A stretch of 36,209 nt of DNA from Bacteroidales bacterium (GTDB taxonomy: Bacteria; Bacteroidota; Bacteroidia; Bacteroidales; P3): NCBI GenBank assembly GCA_017940465.1, contig JAGAYN010000052.1, positions 1 through 36,209 of the forward strand. The letters run 5' to 3'. Positions 2,961-35,699 of the stretch are shown piece by piece. The stretch's first letter is position 1; each line of letters begins with the position of its first letter. The position numbers and the translations under genes were made by a program. Below the pieces are notes generated by a model, which worked only from the letters and a program-made list of their open reading frames with translations, was not told the DNA's origin and made no database searches.

Positions 2961-3037
2961 CGAACTCGGTAGGTATTTGGTAGGTATCCTGTAGGTATTT
3001 ACTTCGACTGAGAACCGATATGAACGCTTATGGACCG
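2961..3037 (+). repeat. 77-bp element made of seven 11-bp units, copy 1
   Basis: Units start at 2961, 2972, 2983, 2994, 3005, 3016 and 3027. Units two to four begin GGTAT; the fourth is GGTATTTACTT. The last three (starting CGACTGAGAAC) are nearly identical to those of the copy at 16686-16762. It lies between the lipoprotein terminator and the promoter region of the next minus-strand gene. See findings. Confidence 0.85.
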
Positions 3038-3051
3038 TTTGGTTAAAAGAA

Positions 3052-3084
3052 ACCGGGGCGCGGCCTGGAAGGCCGCGCCCCGGT
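3052..3084 (-). terminator. Rho-independent terminator of the lipoprotein gene
   Basis: A perfect 14-bp stem (3052-3065 with 3071-3084) closes a five-base loop and is followed, in the minus direction, by TTCTTTTAA. It starts 20 bases after the stop codon of the lipoprotein gene. Confidence 0.85.
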
Positions 3085-3103
3085 CGGGTGATGCCAGGTG
3101 GCA

Positions 3104-3541
3104 TTATTTCAGCGTGTTGAGCAGCGAAAGGATGGTGGTGGCGGTGGTGGCCGTCTGGGCTATGTTGGAGGAGTTGACGTTGGCCAGTCCGTTGCTGGAG
3201 AGCATCTGGTCCACAAACTGGCCTGCGCTGGCGGTGGTGAAGAGGCCGGCGGAGGAGGCTACCATGCCGTTGATGAAGGACTTGCGGAATTGCTTGTCGT
3301 TTTTGTTTTCTTTGAGTTGGGAGTAGCAGGTGGCGAGCGCGAGGGCGTTGGTGAGGTTGGTGCCGGAGGTGATGTTGAGGTTGCCGGTGGATTTGTAGGA
3401 CTTGTAGAGTCCCTGCACGGCGCTGCCGCAACTCTGGCCGGAGGCCATGGCGACGGCGTTGTTGCCAGCTCCCTGGAGGGCGCTGCAGGCGGTGACGGTG
3501 AGTGCCGCGAGGCACATGAGAATGATACCGATACGTTTCAT
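3104..3541 (-). CDS. Small outer-surface or periplasmic lipoprotein
   Basis: This 145-residue protein begins MKRIGIILMCLAALTVTAC. The lipobox LTVTAC places the lipidated cysteine at residue 19, so it is a signal peptidase II substrate. The mature part is Ala/Ser/Asn/Thr-rich, contains two cysteines (CGSAVQGLY and LATCYSQL) and looks mostly helical; no enzyme motif is visible. ATG 3541 is chosen over an upstream TTG at 3547 because it gives a typical signal peptide. It has its own -7 promoter candidate and a strong terminator, so it is probably a monocistronic unit independent of the operon that ends at 3627. It resembles small conserved hypothetical lipoproteins of Bacteroidales; function unknown. 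Confidence 0.8.
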   Translation of the reverse strand: MKRIGIILMCLAALTVTACSALQGAGNNAVAMASGQSCGSAVQGLYKSYKSTGNLNITSGTNLTNALALATCYSQLKENKNDKQFRKSFINGMVASSAGLFTTASAGQFVDQMLSSNGLANVNSSNIAQTATTATTILSLLNTLK

Positions 3542-12972: not shown

Positions 12973-15411
12973 ATGACCCCGAAACGTCTGCTGCTCTACC
13001 TCACACTCACCCTGCCCCTGGCCGCCTGGGGGCAGGGTGTTGTGGAAGGTGTGGTGCGCGACGCCTCGGGCAACGGCACGCTGGAATATGTCAATATCGG
13101 CATCATCGGCCGCAGCGGAGGCACCGTCACCGACGCCCGTGGCCACTATCGCCTCGAGATCCCCTCGGCAGACAGCGTCACCCTCCGCTACTCCTTCACA
13201 GGCTTCCGACACGAAGAACGCCGCATCGCCCTGCGCGGAGGCCGCATACTGAAGATGAACGTGCTCCTCTCGCCGCTGGCCACCGTGCTGGGCGAGGTGG
13301 AAATCAGCGAGGAACAGAACCGACAAAGCTCCTTCACACAGATAGACATCCAGAAGCTGGAAAACACCACCGGCCCCACAGGAGGCGTGGAAAACCTGCT
13401 CAAACTGCTGCCCGACGTGCACTCCAACAACGAGCTCTCCTCGCAATACTCGGTACGCGGCGGCTCCTTCGACGAGAACCTCGTCTACATCAACGACGTG
13501 GAAGTCTTCCGCCCCATGCTCATCCGCAGCGGACAGCAGGAGGGTATGTCCATCATCAACCCCGACCTGGTAGACTATATCCTCTTCTCGCCCGGCGGCT
13601 TCGACGCCTCCTATGGCGACAAACTCTCCTCCGTGCTCGACATCACCTACAGCCGCCCCCGCCACTTCCACGGCAAAGCCTCGGCCAGCCTCCTCGGTGC
13701 CACAGCCACCGTCCAGGGCAGGGCAGGGGAGCGATGGAGCTATGCCGCCGGCCTGCGGCGCCACAGCAACCAGTACATCCTCGGCAGCCTGGACACCAAG
13801 GGCAGCTACACCACCGCCTACACCGACCTGCAGGCCCTGCTGGGCTTCAAGGTGAACGAGCGCCTCGACCTCGGCGCCCTCGCCATCTGGACCCACAACA
13901 TCTACGGCCTCGTGCCCGAAAGCCAGACCACCACTTTTGGAAGCTACTTCATGCCCCTCGTGCTGCGCATCTATTTCGACGGACAGGAGCAGGACCGCTA
14001 CAACACCCTCCTCGGGGCCTTCACCGCCGACTGGCGCCCCACCGACGACTGGCACATCACCTCCAGCCTCTCCCTCCAGCACATCAACGAGAGCGAACGC
14101 TACGATGTGCAAAGCCAATACTGGCTCTACGAGGTAACCACTTCAGGCACCGGAAACGAAAACGAAGAATTCGACCGCGGCGTAGGCACCTTCCTGGAAC
14201 ATGCCCGCAACCGCCTCGCCACCGACCTCGCCGCCCTCAACCTCAAAGCCAGCCGCTATGCCCGTCTGGGCAATTGGAACTTCGGCCTGAAGCTGCAACT
14301 GGAAAACATCGACGACCACCTGCGCGAATGGCGCTGGGTGGACTCGGCCGGCTACGCCCTCCCCACGCAATCCTTCCCCTACGGCAATGCCTCCAACGGC
14401 CCCGCCAGCCCTATCCTCCAGCAGTATGCCAACTCCAACCACACCATGAGCACCTGGCGCACCTCGGGATATGTGCAGCGCGAGCTGAACCTCTACACGC
14501 GACGGCAATCGGACATCAAGGTCCTCGCCGGCATCCGGGGGCAGATCTATGCCAATTCTGTTGCCCAGACCACGCGCTTCTTCCTCTCCCCGCGCGCCAG
14601 CGTCAACTACAAGCCCAAGCTCCGCCATGACATGCTCTTCCGGATCGCCGCCGGCATCTACCAGCAGCCCCCCTTCTATCGCGAGTACCGCACCCCGGAC
14701 GGCACCCTCTTCGCCAACCTCCCCCCTCAGGAATCCTACCAGGCCACCGGCTCGCTCGACTGGAACTTCCGCCTGTGGAACAAGCCTTTCACGCTGACTG
14801 CCGACCTCTACTACAAATACCTCTCCCACCTCATCCCCTACACCGTGGACAACCTACGCCTGCGCTACCAGCCCGACCAGTCCGCCGTCGGCTACGCCAC
14901 GGGCCTGAGCATCCGCCTCAACGGGGAACTCGTCAAGGGGTTGGAGTCGTGGGCCTCCCTCGGCATCATGCGTACACAGGAGGATATCGAAGGCGACGGC
15001 CTGGGATGGCTGGACCGTCCTACCGACCAACGCCTCAGCTTCAAGCTCTTCCTGCAGGACAATATTCCCGATATGCCGTGGTGGCGTATGAGCCTCAACC
15101 TCATATACGCCACCGGAATGCCCGTGTCCATCCCCATGGCCGGCCGCACAGAGGAGAGCTTCCGCCTGCCCTCCTACTACCGCGTCGACTGGGGCAACAC
15201 CATACGCCTCTCGCAATTCAGCCGCCTCCAGGACAAGCGTATCTTCCATTACGTGGAGGACATCCAGGTGAGCCTCGAGATATTCAACCTGTTCAACTTC
15301 CGCAATGTGGTGTCCTACCTTTGGGTATCGGACTATGAGAATAGGTTCTATCCTGTACCCAACTACCTCACCTCCAGGCAACTCAATCTCAAACTAACCG
15401 TCCTTTTCTGA
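12973..15411 (+). CDS. TonB-dependent outer-membrane receptor with carboxypeptidase-regulatory-like domain
   Basis: The 812-residue protein has a signal peptide (cut near AWGQG, residue 20). Residues 22-105 are a carboxypeptidase-regulatory-like Ig domain (VEGVVRDASGNGTLEYVNIG, then SFTGFRHEERRI). A plug domain follows at about 130-225 (LLKLLPDVHS, QYSVRGGSFDENLVYINDVE, LFSPGGFDASYGDKLSSVL), then a large beta-barrel with alternating aromatic strands ending in LNLKLTVLF, whose final Phe fits BAM-dependent insertion. It should import a large ligand using TonB energy. No SusD partner is adjacent, so it is not a typical glycan-utilisation pair; the substrate is unknown. Its TGA overlaps the ATG of the next gene by one base. 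Confidence 0.92.
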   Translation: MTPKRLLLYLTLTLPLAAWGQGVVEGVVRDASGNGTLEYVNIGIIGRSGGTVTDARGHYRLEIPSADSVTLRYSFTGFRHEERRIALRGGRILKMNVLLSPLATVLGEVEISEEQNRQSSFTQIDIQKLENTTGPTGGVENLLKLLPDVHSNNELSSQYSVRGGSFDENLVYINDVEVFRPMLIRSGQQEGMSIINPDLVDYILFSPGGFDASYGDKLSSVLDITYSRPRHFHGKASASLLGATATVQGRAGERWSYAAGLRRHSNQYILGSLDTKGSYTTAYTDLQALLGFKVNERLDLGALAIWTHNIYGLVPESQTTTFGSYFMPLVLRIYFDGQEQDRYNTLLGAFTADWRPTDDWHITSSLSLQHINESERYDVQSQYWLYEVTTSGTGNENEEFDRGVGTFLEHARNRLATDLAALNLKASRYARLGNWNFGLKLQLENIDDHLREWRWVDSAGYALPTQSFPYGNASNGPASPILQQYANSNHTMSTWRTSGYVQRELNLYTRRQSDIKVLAGIRGQIYANSVAQTTRFFLSPRASVNYKPKLRHDMLFRIAAGIYQQPPFYREYRTPDGTLFANLPPQESYQATGSLDWNFRLWNKPFTLTADLYYKYLSHLIPYTVDNLRLRYQPDQSAVGYATGLSIRLNGELVKGLESWASLGIMRTQEDIEGDGLGWLDRPTDQRLSFKLFLQDNIPDMPWWRMSLNLIYATGMPVSIPMAGRTEESFRLPSYYRVDWGNTIRLSQFSRLQDKRIFHYVEDIQVSLEIFNLFNFRNVVSYLWVSDYENRFYPVPNYLTSRQLNLKLTVLF

Positions 15412-16673
15412 TGATCAGATACCCCGATGTCAGCAGTCTCCTCGCACCGCAGACGCACCTCTGTGCCAGCGGCAGGCGGATCCACACCTTTCCTTCCGCC
15501 AGCACCGAACTGGTGAAGCTGGACTTCATGACCGACGCTGGCTACCTCCACCAGCCCCGGCTGCTGTGCGCCTCGGCGGCCGCCAGGCTTGTCACCGTGG
15601 CCACCCCCGGCATGTCCGCCCAGCGCCTTGCCGAATACCTCGATGCCCGGGGCGTATCCATCGAGGCCAACGCCTACCACTTCACCTCCAGTCTCACCGT
15701 CTACACCCACCGCCGCTACCTTCCCGACCTGATCCCCCTGCTGCACGACATGCTCTCCGCCCCGGCTTTCACCGAGGACGATTTCCAGGTGTGGCGTGCC
15801 GCCAAGCGGCAGGAGATAGCGGAGCATGGGAGGCGCACCTCGTCGGTGGCGCGTATCGCGTGGAACCAGGCCGTGTTCGGGAGCGGGCATCTGCTGGGGC
15901 GGTTCGCCACGCCCGAGGATGCCGACCGCCTGCAGGCCGACACGGTGCGCGCATTCATAGGCCGGCACTACGGGCCCTCCTCTTGCTCGATTGTCCTATC
16001 GGGGGCGATCGACGGGGCGACCGAGGCCCTCCTGGACCGTTATTTCCCCCTTTCCGCAGCGGAACCCGAGCCTGCCTCCGAGGCCCGGATGCCGGACCTG
16101 GAACCCCTCGCTCCCTCGCGCCAGCGATTGCCAGTGGAGGGCGCGCAGCAGGCTTCGCTGCGCATCGGCTGTGTGCTGCCGTCGCCCGAGGGCATGTCGG
16201 CCGAGGAGTCGGTGCGCCTGGCCCTCTGCTCCAACCTCCTCGGCGGCTATTTCGGCTCGCGCCTGATGAGCAACCTGCGGGAGGACAAGGGCTACACCTA
16301 CGGCATCGCTTCGCATATCCGCCAGTACCGCCCCTGCCGCACCTTCTATATCGACGCCGATGTGGCGGACGACTGCATCGAGGAGGCCGAGGCGGAGGTG
16401 ATGAAGGAATTGAGGCTTCTGACGGAGCAGCCACCGTCCAGGGAGGAACTCGACACGGTGCGCAACACGCTCTGCGGCGACGCGATGCGGATGCTGGACG
16501 GCGTCTTTGAGCGTTCCGACCGCTTCTGCGAGCAGTTCGAGACGGGAACTGTCGACCTGTGGAAGCCCTATTTCGCCTCCATCGTCGCTGAAACCACGCC
16601 GAAGCAGGTTATGGAACTGGCTGTGAAGTGGTTGAATCCCGATAGGATGACTACCGTCCTGGCCACACCCTGA
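15411..16673 (+). CDS. M16-family peptidase-like protein lacking the zinc-binding motif
   Basis: The 420-residue protein has the two-lobe fold of processing-peptidase-like M16 proteins: an N-terminal half with IHTFPSASTELVKLDFMTDAG and a C-terminal half with NLLGGYFGSRLMSNLREDKG and YTYGIASHIR, the R/Y region of the partner subunit. The inverted zinc motif HxxEH expected near residue 50-60 is absent; the place reads YLHQPRLLCASAAARL. No signal peptide is visible. Non-catalytic M16 proteins normally pair with a catalytic one, but none is adjacent. The start overlaps the TonB receptor stop (TGATG), so co-translation and a function linked to that receptor are plausible. Confidence 0.85.
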   Translation: MIRYPDVSSLLAPQTHLCASGRRIHTFPSASTELVKLDFMTDAGYLHQPRLLCASAAARLVTVATPGMSAQRLAEYLDARGVSIEANAYHFTSSLTVYTHRRYLPDLIPLLHDMLSAPAFTEDDFQVWRAAKRQEIAEHGRRTSSVARIAWNQAVFGSGHLLGRFATPEDADRLQADTVRAFIGRHYGPSSCSIVLSGAIDGATEALLDRYFPLSAAEPEPASEARMPDLEPLAPSRQRLPVEGAQQASLRIGCVLPSPEGMSAEESVRLALCSNLLGGYFGSRLMSNLREDKGYTYGIASHIRQYRPCRTFYIDADVADDCIEEAEAEVMKELRLLTEQPPSREELDTVRNTLCGDAMRMLDGVFERSDRFCEQFETGTVDLWKPYFASIVAETTPKQVMELAVKWLNPDRMTTVLATP

Positions 16674-16685
16674 CCGCAGCCTGCA

Positions 16686-16762
16686 GGGACCCTATAGGTA
16701 TCCGGTAGGTATCCGGTAGGTATTTACTTCGACTGAGAACCGATATGACCGCTTATGGACCA
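16686..16762 (+). repeat. 77-bp element made of seven 11-bp units, copy 2
   Basis: Units start at 16686, 16697, 16708, 16719, 16730, 16741 and 16752. The first is GGGACCCTATA and the next two are identical GGTATCCGGTA. It has the same orientation as copy 1 and lies between two convergent genes, starting 12 bases after the stop of the M16-like gene. Confidence 0.88.
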
Positions 16763-16781: not shown

Positions 16782-17567
16782 TCAGTCGCACAAAATATAC
16801 AGGTCGTCTCTCGGGTTCAGGAAGAGCACCGGCAACCGTGGGAACCGCTTCAGGAGCAGGCGCTCCTGGCGAGGGAGGAGGTGGTCGATCAGGTCCTGTT
16901 CGCGGGGGTCGGTGGTCATGGCGATGAGCAGGCCGCCCTGCTCGCCGGCGGCGGCGAGGTCGACCCGCGTGGTGGCCCTCAACGCAGCCACCTCGTACTT
17001 TGTCCTGCCCCCCTCGCGTTCCGGCAGTACTTTGTCGGCGAAGCGCAGGTTGTTCTGCAGGCGCGAACGGAGTCCCTGGTCGCGGTAGTCGGGGGTGGCG
17101 ATGGTGATGCGGCTGCCGAGCAGACGGAAGAGGTAGGAGGCCCAGACGAGTTTCTCCTTGCCCTCGCGCTGGTGGGTGAGGGTGAGGCAGGCGCGGCTTG
17201 TGTCCACAACCGGCGGCGCCCCCGTGGGAACACATAGATAGGCGATGCGGCATTGGCGGAAGTGGCGCAGGAGGGTGGCGGGATGAGCCAGCGCGGTGCG
17301 AGGTGCCGTGGGGTCGTGAGGGGCCACGGCGAGGATGCCTTTGAAGGCGGTGGGCAGCCCGCCGATGGCGGTGCTCCAGTCGCCCACCAGGCTGGCGAAG
17401 GGCACTCCCAATGCCTCGAGCCAGCCGTCGTCCCCGCGCTCCTTGCCCACATGCAGCGCGATGATTCCCTTGTGGTTGAGCCGTTCGGCGAAGTGCCTGG
17501 CCCAGGCGAGAACGGATGGCGCGTCGGCCGGGCGGTCGATGCAGGCTACTACGAACTGGTCTTTCAT
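16782..17567 (-). CDS. Universal-stress-protein-like cytosolic protein
   Basis: The 261-residue protein starts MKDQFVVACIDRPADAPSVL, resembling the first beta strand and helix of UspA-type alpha/beta nucleotide-binding domains. A second similar lobe appears from about residue 135 (LTLTHQREGKEKLVWASYLF) and ends with LPVLFLNPRDDLYILCD. No signal peptide or membrane segment is present. I do not see the full ATP-binding GxxG-9x-G(S/T) motif, so nucleotide binding is uncertain. Its ATG overlaps the stop of the large T9SS cargo gene by four bases, so its translation is probably coupled to that secreted protein. It could also be an orphan domain specific to Bacteroidales. Confidence 0.6.
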   Translation of the reverse strand: MKDQFVVACIDRPADAPSVLAWARHFAERLNHKGIIALHVGKERGDDGWLEALGVPFASLVGDWSTAIGGLPTAFKGILAVAPHDPTAPRTALAHPATLLRHFRQCRIAYLCVPTGAPPVVDTSRACLTLTHQREGKEKLVWASYLFRLLGSRITIATPDYRDQGLRSRLQNNLRFADKVLPEREGGRTKYEVAALRATTRVDLAAAGEQGGLLIAMTTDPREQDLIDHLLPRQERLLLKRFPRLPVLFLNPRDDLYILCD

Positions 17568-34315: not shown

Positions 34316-35509
34316 ATGTGGTTTACTAACTTGCTTACCGGCGGCGGCGTGGGCACCACGGTGCTCATGCTCTCCGTCTCCATCTTTGCCGGCCTGCTGC
34401 TGGGCAAACTCAAAGTCAAGGGCATCTCCCTCGGCATCACCTGGGTGCTCTTCGTGGGCATCCTCATCAGTGCGCTGGGCGTGGCGTGCAACCACGACAT
34501 GCTGCACATCGTCAAGGAATTGGGGCTCATCCTCTTCGTCACCGCCGTGGGCCTCCAGGTGGGGCCGGGCTTCTTCCGCACCTTCAAGACGGGCGGATTG
34601 CCGATGAACCTCATGGCGGTGGTGAACGTGGCGCTGGGCGTGGGCCTCACGGTGTTGATAGCCAAGCTGGCCGGCGAGGAGCTGACCGACATGGCGGGCG
34701 TCTACACCGGCGCCATCACCAACACCCCCGGCCTCTCGGCCGCCCAGCAGGCCGTGGGCGACCTCGGCATCGAGGGCGCATCGGGCCGTCTGGCTGCGGG
34801 CTACGCCGTGGCCTACCCCCTGGCGGTGGTCGGCATGATCATGTGCTGCATCCTCCTCCGCCCGCTCTGCCGTATCGACATGGCGAAGGAGCCCACCACG
34901 GTGGAAGTCCAGGATAATGCCGGCAACCAGAATGTTCCGGAATCGCCCAAGAACCGGAAGCCCGTCCTCCTCATCCCCGTCTTCGTCGTCATCGCCCTCG
35001 GCATCCTGCTGGGCTCCATCCCCGTTCCGGTGGGCATGAAGGCCCCGGTGAAGCTGGGGCTGGCTGGCGGCCCCCTGGTGGTGTCCCTCGTGGCCGGATG
35101 GCTGGGGGTGAAGAAAGGCTGGTTCTCCACCGACTTCACCGAAGGCCACGGCATCCACATGCTGCGCGAGGTGGGCATCGCCCTCTTTCTGGCGGGCGTG
35201 GGCCTCAGTGCCGGCGCCGACTTCGCCACCACTGTCACCGACCACTACATGTGGGTGGTCTACGGTGTCGTCATCACCATGGTGCCGCCGCTGCTGGTGG
35301 CCCTCTTCGGCCGCTTGGTGCTGAAACAGAACTACTACACCCTCATGGGCTTCATCGGCGGCAGCCACACCGACCCGCCCACGCTGGCCTTCGCCAACAA
35401 CGTGGCGCCCGAGGGCTGCAAGCTGCCCAACATGGGCTACGCCACCGTCTACCCCCTCACCATGTTCCTCCGCATCTTCACCGCCCAGCTGCTGGTGCTG
35501 ATGGCGTGA
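34316..35509 (+). CDS. AspT/YidE-family membrane transporter, short form
   Basis: The 397-residue protein has two homologous five- to six-helix halves. Signature turns are TGAITNTPGLSAAQQAVGDL in the first half and GFIGGSHTDPPTLAFANNVA in the second, as in the aspartate:alanine exchanger and YidE/YbjL families. Those relatives are near 550 residues because two TrkA-C (RCK-C) domains lie between the halves; here only a polar linker of about 30 residues (KEPTTVEVQDNAGNQNVPES) remains. The operon position suggests exchange of an amino acid of the arginine route, such as ornithine, citrulline or agmatine, but family members carry aspartate, alanine or dicarboxylates. It is 136 bases after the carbamoyltransferase gene and ends before a strong terminator. 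Confidence 0.85.
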   Translation: MWFTNLLTGGGVGTTVLMLSVSIFAGLLLGKLKVKGISLGITWVLFVGILISALGVACNHDMLHIVKELGLILFVTAVGLQVGPGFFRTFKTGGLPMNLMAVVNVALGVGLTVLIAKLAGEELTDMAGVYTGAITNTPGLSAAQQAVGDLGIEGASGRLAAGYAVAYPLAVVGMIMCCILLRPLCRIDMAKEPTTVEVQDNAGNQNVPESPKNRKPVLLIPVFVVIALGILLGSIPVPVGMKAPVKLGLAGGPLVVSLVAGWLGVKKGWFSTDFTEGHGIHMLREVGIALFLAGVGLSAGADFATTVTDHYMWVVYGVVITMVPPLLVALFGRLVLKQNYYTLMGFIGGSHTDPPTLAFANNVAPEGCKLPNMGYATVYPLTMFLRIFTAQLLVLMA

Positions 35510-35622: not shown

Positions 35623-35699
35623 CGGTCCATATCCGTTCATAACGGTTCACAGTCGAAGTAAATACCTACAGGATACCTACCGGATACCTATAGGGTCCC
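35623..35699 (-). repeat. 77-bp element made of seven 11-bp units, copy 3 (inverted)
   Basis: Read on the minus strand, units start at 35699 (GGGACCCTATA), 35688, 35677, 35666, 35655, 35644 and 35633. Length and unit order are the same as in the copies at 2961 and 16686. It lies between the arcC-operon terminator and the promoter of the candidate RNA. Confidence 0.88.

Follow-up and report, generated by a model that had tools for sequence, protein, structure and literature searches.

The window, the whole 36,209-nucleotide stretch that was analysed, is contig C50 of an uncultured gut Bacteroidales genome (G000; 2.24 Mb, 56 contigs) and contains three copies of a dispersed element, at 2961–3037 and 16686–16762 on the plus strand and at 35623–35699 on the minus strand. 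The initial annotation had reported three copies of identical length; the coordinates and the length of 77 bp apiece were confirmed, and the copies agree with each other at 67 (copies 1 and 2), 66 (1 and 3), and 70 (2 and 3) of the 77 positions. A 19-base core gave 3 exact occurrences in the window and 0 in 100 shuffles. Copy 1 lies past the end of a predicted minus-strand gene (3104–3541). Copy 2 begins 12 bp past the stop codon of a peptidase M16-domain gene (15411–16673) and also faces the end of a predicted minus-strand gene (16782–17567), and the inverted copy 3 lies beyond the end of an AspT/YidE-like transporter gene (34331–35509). Two minor features adjoin copy 1. Immediately 5′ of it, at 2920–2960, is another dispersed repeat, GAGAGGGGGCTGGGGGGTGAGGCC with CCCTCTC as its partner, and in 10 of the 99 G000 copies described below the word GAGAGGGGGnTGGGGGG was found no more than 80 bp upstream of the core. 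A GC-rich inverted repeat at 3045–3085, noticed by eye, is perhaps the terminator of the minus-strand gene ending at 3104.

Each copy consists of a left array, a centre, and a right arm. In copy 1, the left array (2961–3004) is composed of a lead unit followed by GGTATTTGGTA, GGTATCCTGTA, and GGTATTTACTT with an 11-bp step; the centre CGACTGA (3005–3011) follows, where the stretch in common with the sister species G004 is TACTTCGACT; and the right arm (3012–3037) reads GAACCGATAT, GAACGCTTAT, and GGACCG with a 10-bp step. The same steps of 11 and 10 bp are found in the left array and right arm of copy 2 (16686–16729 and 16737–16762, plus strand) and of copy 3 (35656–35699 and 35623–35648, minus strand). 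When lags of 9–12 were tested on the right 33 bp of the window copies, lag 10 scored highest in all three; the identities at lag 10 were 0.52, 0.43, and 0.65, versus 0.41, 0.36, and 0.36 at lag 11. Over 99 G000 copies (lags 5–17), the left part showed an identity of 0.70 at lag 11 and at most 0.33 at the other lags, and the right part was best at lag 10 (0.50), with 0.31 for the next best lag and 0.29 for lag 11. The element is a left part of 4 × 11 bp followed by a right part of approximately 3 × 10 bp. The left step of 11 (lag identity 0.62–0.74) and the right step of 10 (0.50–0.57) were both found in G000 and in the sister species G004, G001, and G111 (99, 54, 28, and 29 copies, respectively). 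The element had been described as seven 11-bp units, which must be corrected because only the left 44 bp step by 11 and the right half steps by 10 in all four species; conservation of the 11-base step holds for the left array of the four species and fails in their right arms. The turn of B-DNA is 10.5 bp. Steps of 10 and 11 bp bracket this value, and the units would therefore lie on about one face of the helix.

In G000, the lead unit is followed by GGTATCC-N-V-TA units, the last of which is GGTATTTACTT, and the right part is GAACCGATAT, GAACGCTTAT, and GGACCA stepping by 10. Three GGTAT units are present in 84 of the 99 copies and four in 12, and two, five, and ten units were found in one copy each. 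The least conserved columns of the left units are both N-V positions of each unit, which appear as low-information columns at −26/−25, −15/−14, and −4/−3 in the profile of the 99 copies and thus recur every 11 bp; columns 0 to 15 are fully fixed through the choice of copies by the exact core and are not evidence. Contact from one face would predict such a recurrence, and the column profile is consistent with the earlier proposal that the units are spaced at the helical pitch and that one protein could bind each unit on the same face. The right arm is mirrored into a hairpin in 4 of the 99 copies, and no terminal inverted repeat was noticed by eye in the 99 listed copies.

We searched the whole genome with a 16-base core, which gave 99 exact sites and 122 sites with three mismatches or fewer, versus 11 for the reversed control. 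BLAST of G000 returned 118 candidates, of which the best 40 were scored. The element is a family of about 100–120 copies in G000; the 99 copies analysed here are those with the exact core, a choice that leaves out roughly a dozen diverged copies. These counts bear out the claim of a dispersed multi-copy element as opposed to chance similarity. The claim that the copies are intergenic was likewise upheld, since no overlap of more than 20 bp with a predicted gene was found for 96 of 99 copies in G000, 54 of 54 in G004, 33 of 33 in G001, and 38 of 38 in G111, at a coding density of approximately 87% over the G000 and G004 stretches (gene calls from a hexamer model, which missed some ORFs). The elements tend to sit near stop codons and farther from starts. 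Over the four species, the element has its right end toward a gene end in 135 of 216 cases, which is a modest bias, and divergent gaps hold 39 of 204 two-sided cases.

The genes flanking 16 listed sites are of mixed function, and a reading of the elements as a single regulon was rejected on this basis. Those named by profile encode RlmN and a DNA polymerase III delta-prime-type subunit; another encodes what we take to be penicillin-binding protein 1A (pbp1A-like), of which the 100-residue piece tried gave no Pfam match. A scatter of the kind seen for uptake sequences was also rejected after six unit words were counted in the sequence outside the elements. Four were under expectation (TAGGTATCC 2, GGTATCCGG 1, and GGTATTTAC 0, versus 5.4 each; AGGTATCC 15, versus 21.6), and two were over it (ACCGATATG 10 and TACTTCGAC 13, versus 5.4), perhaps from diverged copies.

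Neighbouring elements are on average 17–25 kb apart, and only 2 of 178 neighbour gaps in the four species are shorter than 3 kb, where approximately 25 would be expected under random spacing; this expectation is an estimate from the mean gaps that ignores gap availability, and the position lists of G001 and G111 are partial (61 and 68 positions). Pairs of elements are co-oriented in 85 of 109 cases below 15 kb, 64 of 146 at 15–40 kb, and 87 of 134 at 40–100 kb, compared with 48–69% for predicted genes up to 20 kb. Co-orientation is thus high below 15 kb, under half at 15–40 kb, and up again at 40–60 kb. A KOPS-like replichore polarity was rejected because the agreement in orientation fails to persist at 15–40 kb.

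A scan of 190 genomes of the family with TACTTCGACT singled out only G000 (120 sites, control 7) and G004 (63 sites, control 9). Among the 62 distinct matches in G004, 8 without an array-type centre start were dropped by eye, and the 54 array-bearing copies that remained are composed of GGTRTCTGGTA units, GGTGAATACTTCGACT, and then 10-bp right units of TTTCCCATCA or TGGCGCGATT. The gap between the pbp1A-like and rlmN genes holds elements in other words in G111 and G001 as well, whereas the remaining 26 of the 30 best-matching congeners showed none by eye within 200 bp past the stop codon. Genome-wide searches of G001 and G111 gave 89 to 138 first-look candidates, of which the best 40 per search were scored; the counts used here are the 33 and 38 readable copies in the examined loci, with 28 and 29 for lag identity. 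The centres in G001 and G111 are several (ATAGGCC, TTCGACT, AAAGGCA, and TAGGGCA), and their right arms are of two kinds. Palindromic right arms are frequent in G004, G001, and G111, and T runs follow some of them. The architecture is the same in all three sister species, each of which has its own sequence words.

We compared the positions of the elements among the four species through their flanking genes. Where both flanking genes matched, the orientation was the same in 36 species-pair cases and inverted in 1, and the 36 cases merge to 23 distinct gene gaps, each filled in at least two species and five of them in three or four. When one or both flanks in common sufficed, 81 pairs were same-side and 24 inverted, which indicates that one-flank matches are noisy. 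The left arrays are 0.85–0.91 identical within a species. Between species, in three of four comparisons, their identity at shared sites does not exceed the level of random cross-species pairs (shared versus all pairs: G000–G004, 0.63 versus 0.68; G000–G111, 0.44 versus 0.49; and G004–G111, 0.59 versus 0.64). The left arrays of G001 and G111 are above average at shared sites (0.92 versus 0.85), which counts against full replacement. Synteny between G001 and G111 was too low for an unbiased comparison of sites, and most of their shared pairs are seeds picked since both were filled. Right arms at shared sites are above average in three of four comparisons (0.39 versus 0.31, 0.56 versus 0.50, and 0.59 versus 0.43) and below it in G004–G111 (0.27 versus 0.36). 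Centres are also above average in three (0.83 versus 0.62, 0.72 versus 0.62, and 0.82 versus 0.71), the fourth comparison being fixed by the selection of copies. At the pbp1A-rlmN site, the elements of G001 and G111 are equal in length, with a homologous left array and a different right arm.

It had been proposed that the element was duplicated as a whole after the 11-mers formed. This proposal fits one genome and does not account for the sister species, which fill some of the same gaps with different sequences. Such filling indicates that the sites are old and that the sequences were homogenised within species. On the sequence comparisons given above, the sites look old and oriented, and the sequences, the left arrays above all, look homogenised within each species. 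At L219 and L236, the stretch around one element is near-identical in G001 and G111, the other shared regions being approximately 87% identical; a recent transfer is possible.

The wider distribution was examined with the pattern TAGG-N7-TAGG-N7-TAGG, which occurred in 72 of the 190 family genomes, that is, in 70 of 120 within the genus and 2 of 70 outside it. Counts reached 208 in G010 (reversed control 174) and were 80 in G000 (control 26); the control count of G010 is itself a sign of other 11-bp arrays. Across the order, the pattern was found in 40 of 393 sampled genomes, 25 of which had 1–2 matches, and high counts were obtained for G278 (75), G476 (42), G432 (31), G444 (19), and G056 (88, reversed control 103). 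The high counts in a few genomes across the order indicate that the class is patchy in Bacteroidales and extends beyond the genus, and the claim that it is confined to the genus was weakened accordingly. The reversed control GGAT-N7-GGAT-N7-GGAT is high in G010, G084, G140, G247, and G056, where it marks other versions of 11-bp arrays.

When periodicity was scanned without reference to TAGG, the density of period-11 arrays was 28.9 per Mb in 31 top-ranked relative loci (346 kb), and the 49 lower-ranked loci (539 kb) of the same protein search had none. The 31 loci are from named, mostly ruminant-gut MAGs that are 64–84% identical to the query, which is within the range of the genus, and are putatively congeneric. 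In 694 kb from 51 relative loci, 18 of which were picked through TAGG hits, 40 of 41 arrays lie outside predicted genes. Upstream of the delta-prime (holB-like) gene, an 11-bp array was found in 10 of 28 loci, and all lags apart from 11 and 22 together accounted for 3 hits; three of the 31 loci were omitted, as two lacked the gene and its start was ambiguous in the third. The unit words of these arrays fall into five groups (at least 8 of 11 in the best rotation and strand, which random pairs reach in 2%), one of which is common to four loci in related form and one of which consists of four loosely chained words. In G007 and G072, which are about 90–95% identical, the aligned stretches contain 3 array sites, all of them common to both, the stretches having been chosen for array hits and thus being biased. 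In several relatives, a palindromic centre is flanked by 11-bp arms in inverted orientation. Named ruminant MAGs (L272, 7438–7532; L277, 491–586; L251; and L255) also show a short centre surrounded by inverted 11-bp arrays.

Several described repeats resemble the element in part. BOX elements of pneumococcus are modular and intergenic with a repeatable inner module, as is the element here, which differs in having modules of 10–11 bp in helical phase. Plasmid centromeres such as parC carry 11-bp direct repeats bound by ParR. The left arm is such an 11-bp direct-repeat array in four species, whereas the right arm steps by 10 bp and there are about 100 chromosomal copies. REP/BIME elements are palindromic and accompany RAYT genes. 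In the part of the REP/BIME account drawn on here (PMC2817692), the likeness lies in about 100 or more intergenic copies per genome and a mosaic arrangement; in contrast to REPs, the window copies have no significant fold, and the family as a whole has no clear RAYT association. In some archaea, tandem repeats of 6–11 bp are over-represented in intergenic DNA, which matches the unit length range and the intergenic place, but a dispersed element of fixed architecture is not among the features described in the available portion of that work (PMC4060949). The STAR elements of staphylococci, as presented in the excerpted text of PMC3532100, are interspersed intergenic direct repeats and are the nearest described ones that were found. 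They also are short direct repeats at many intergenic places that are maintained in a lineage; STAR loci vary between species, whereas here some loci are shared, the sequence differs, and the step is that of the helical pitch (PMC3532100). No description of the present family was found in searches of an open-licence library, and the only Rfam match in the window was a tRNA, which agrees with the earlier statement that no named repeat family fits. We claim no membership in a described family.

The reading that we prefer, with a probability of roughly 0.4, is that the copies are phased binding arrays for a putative protein and form an architectural or centromere-like class of sites in which the recognition sequence is replaced while the sites persist. 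The conserved columns, fixed unit number, orientation, spacing, and shared sites lead to this reading. We infer the protein, its binding, the architectural role, and the conversion mechanism from these features together with the copy number, the 11- and 10-bp steps, the periodic variable columns, the intergenic place, and the species-specific left arrays, all of which were observed. Each copy would act in cis as a DNA site and would be neither a gene nor an RNA nor an element that is hopping at present. A putative sequence-specific protein (or two) would bind along a single DNA face with one protomer for each helical turn, giving about 3–4 protomers on the left 11-bp array and approximately 3 on the right 10-bp array. 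The two arrays around the centre would yield an oriented nucleoprotein complex, and approximately 100 such sites would be kept in gene gaps as centromere-like or insulator-like sites of chromosome architecture. The recognition sequence would shift between species, with conversion between copies spreading each change over the existing sites; in co-evolution with the protein, the letters would be replaced and the sites and their spacing would persist. Against the architectural reading, the information per element is far above the need for marking 100 sites and also fits recent copying. The dip of co-orientation at 15–40 kb, the orientation bias toward the right-hand gene of only 135 of 216, and the incomplete overwriting of shared sites count against it as well.

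The main rival, and a serious one although we regard it as less likely, is a selfish, non-autonomous repeat (MITE- or REP-like) that is mobile or homing and is spread by an enzyme, with target immunity and with new versions overwriting old ones at existing sites. The close similarity of copies within one genome, the avoidance of neighbours within 3 kb (2 of 178), and the replacement of a module at a fixed site (the right arm at pbp1A-rlmN in G001 and G111) are consistent with such a repeat, as are the modular flanks, where a GAGAGGGGG-type repeat precedes 10 of 99 copies and 4 of 99 right arms are mirrored into a hairpin. Y1_Tnp (RAYT-type) genes are present in G000 (6), G001 (7), G111 (4), and G004 (2), but they were not found in the array-rich G069, G097, and G075, nor in G078, and they occur in genera where TAGG arrays are absent or nearly so. 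Over the 190 genomes, Y1_Tnp has no clear association with arrays, and RAYT transposition was not favoured. No insertion versus empty site was seen, the 3 sites of G007 and G072 being shared in the biased stretches described above; the core (three versions, exact words) was absent from the viral contigs searched, and copy 2 was absent from the phage and plasmid records searched. In G000, single-domain Y1_Tnp (IS200/RAYT-type) genes are located at L098 634–1053, 2628–3101, and 14435–14899 and at L048 13173–13640, some of them within 1–2 kb of an element.

An action at the RNA level, as a 3′ end hairpin or a stability signal, is improbable. The frequent palindromes and occasional T runs of the right arms in G004, G001, and G111 and the inverted arms in several relatives would suit it, but the three window copies, folded as RNA on either strand (6 strands), did not surpass shuffles (z of −0.60 to 1.32), and part of the sites lie in divergent gaps. 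An Rfam scan of the window at the gathering threshold placed no family at the copies. A structured RNA was rejected for the window copies on the basis of the scan and the folds.

Rho utilisation sites were considered because the complementary strand is C-rich with cytosines approximately every 11 nt, and its RNA might recruit Rho and end transcripts. In line with this explanation, RhoTermPredict, in the part of its description used here (PMC6407284), looks for RUT sites of 78 nt in which C > G and a cytosine recurs at intervals of 11–13 nt. The C-rich strand is downstream of the right-hand gene in the 135 of 216 cases given above. However, the 39 of 204 two-sided cases in divergent gaps are places where no predicted gene ends, and many arrays of other congeners have little C/G strand bias, so we assign this explanation a very low probability. 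It is just as improbable that the arrays are ordinary functionless minisatellites made by slippage: relatives have tandem 11-bp arrays that differ in length, one G000 copy has approximately 10 units, and units 1–2 and 1–3 within a copy share the variable dinucleotide above chance (p = 0.008 and 0.03), but the unit number is equal in 84 of 99 copies, units 2–3 show no excess likeness within a copy (p = 0.42), and the oriented shared sites, the single version genome-wide, and the 10-bp right arm also speak against slippage.

Extended beyond the four species, the reading as phased protein-binding arrays would describe a patchy Bacteroidales-wide class of sites set by helical phase and not by sequence, with arrays of 10–11 bp, conserved positions and orientation, and a recognition sequence replaced in step with a putative DNA-binding protein; we put this extension forward tentatively and consider it somewhat unlikely as a whole. 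If true, bacteria would have in this class a counterpart to the fast-evolving systems of centromeres or recombination hotspots. A set of places, the orientation, and the helical spacing persist here while much of the sequence is exchanged, whereas the nearest described intergenic direct repeats change location between species. If the pattern holds, the genomes would offer a natural series on how a DNA-binding protein and approximately 100 sites shift their specificity together and would point to a hitherto unrecognised level of chromosome organisation among uncultured bacteria of the ruminant gut. The genus still has the canonical chromosomal parS word, which indicates that the arrays are not a replacement for parS; the word is retained in 112 of the 190 genomes, including G000 (2 sites) and G004.
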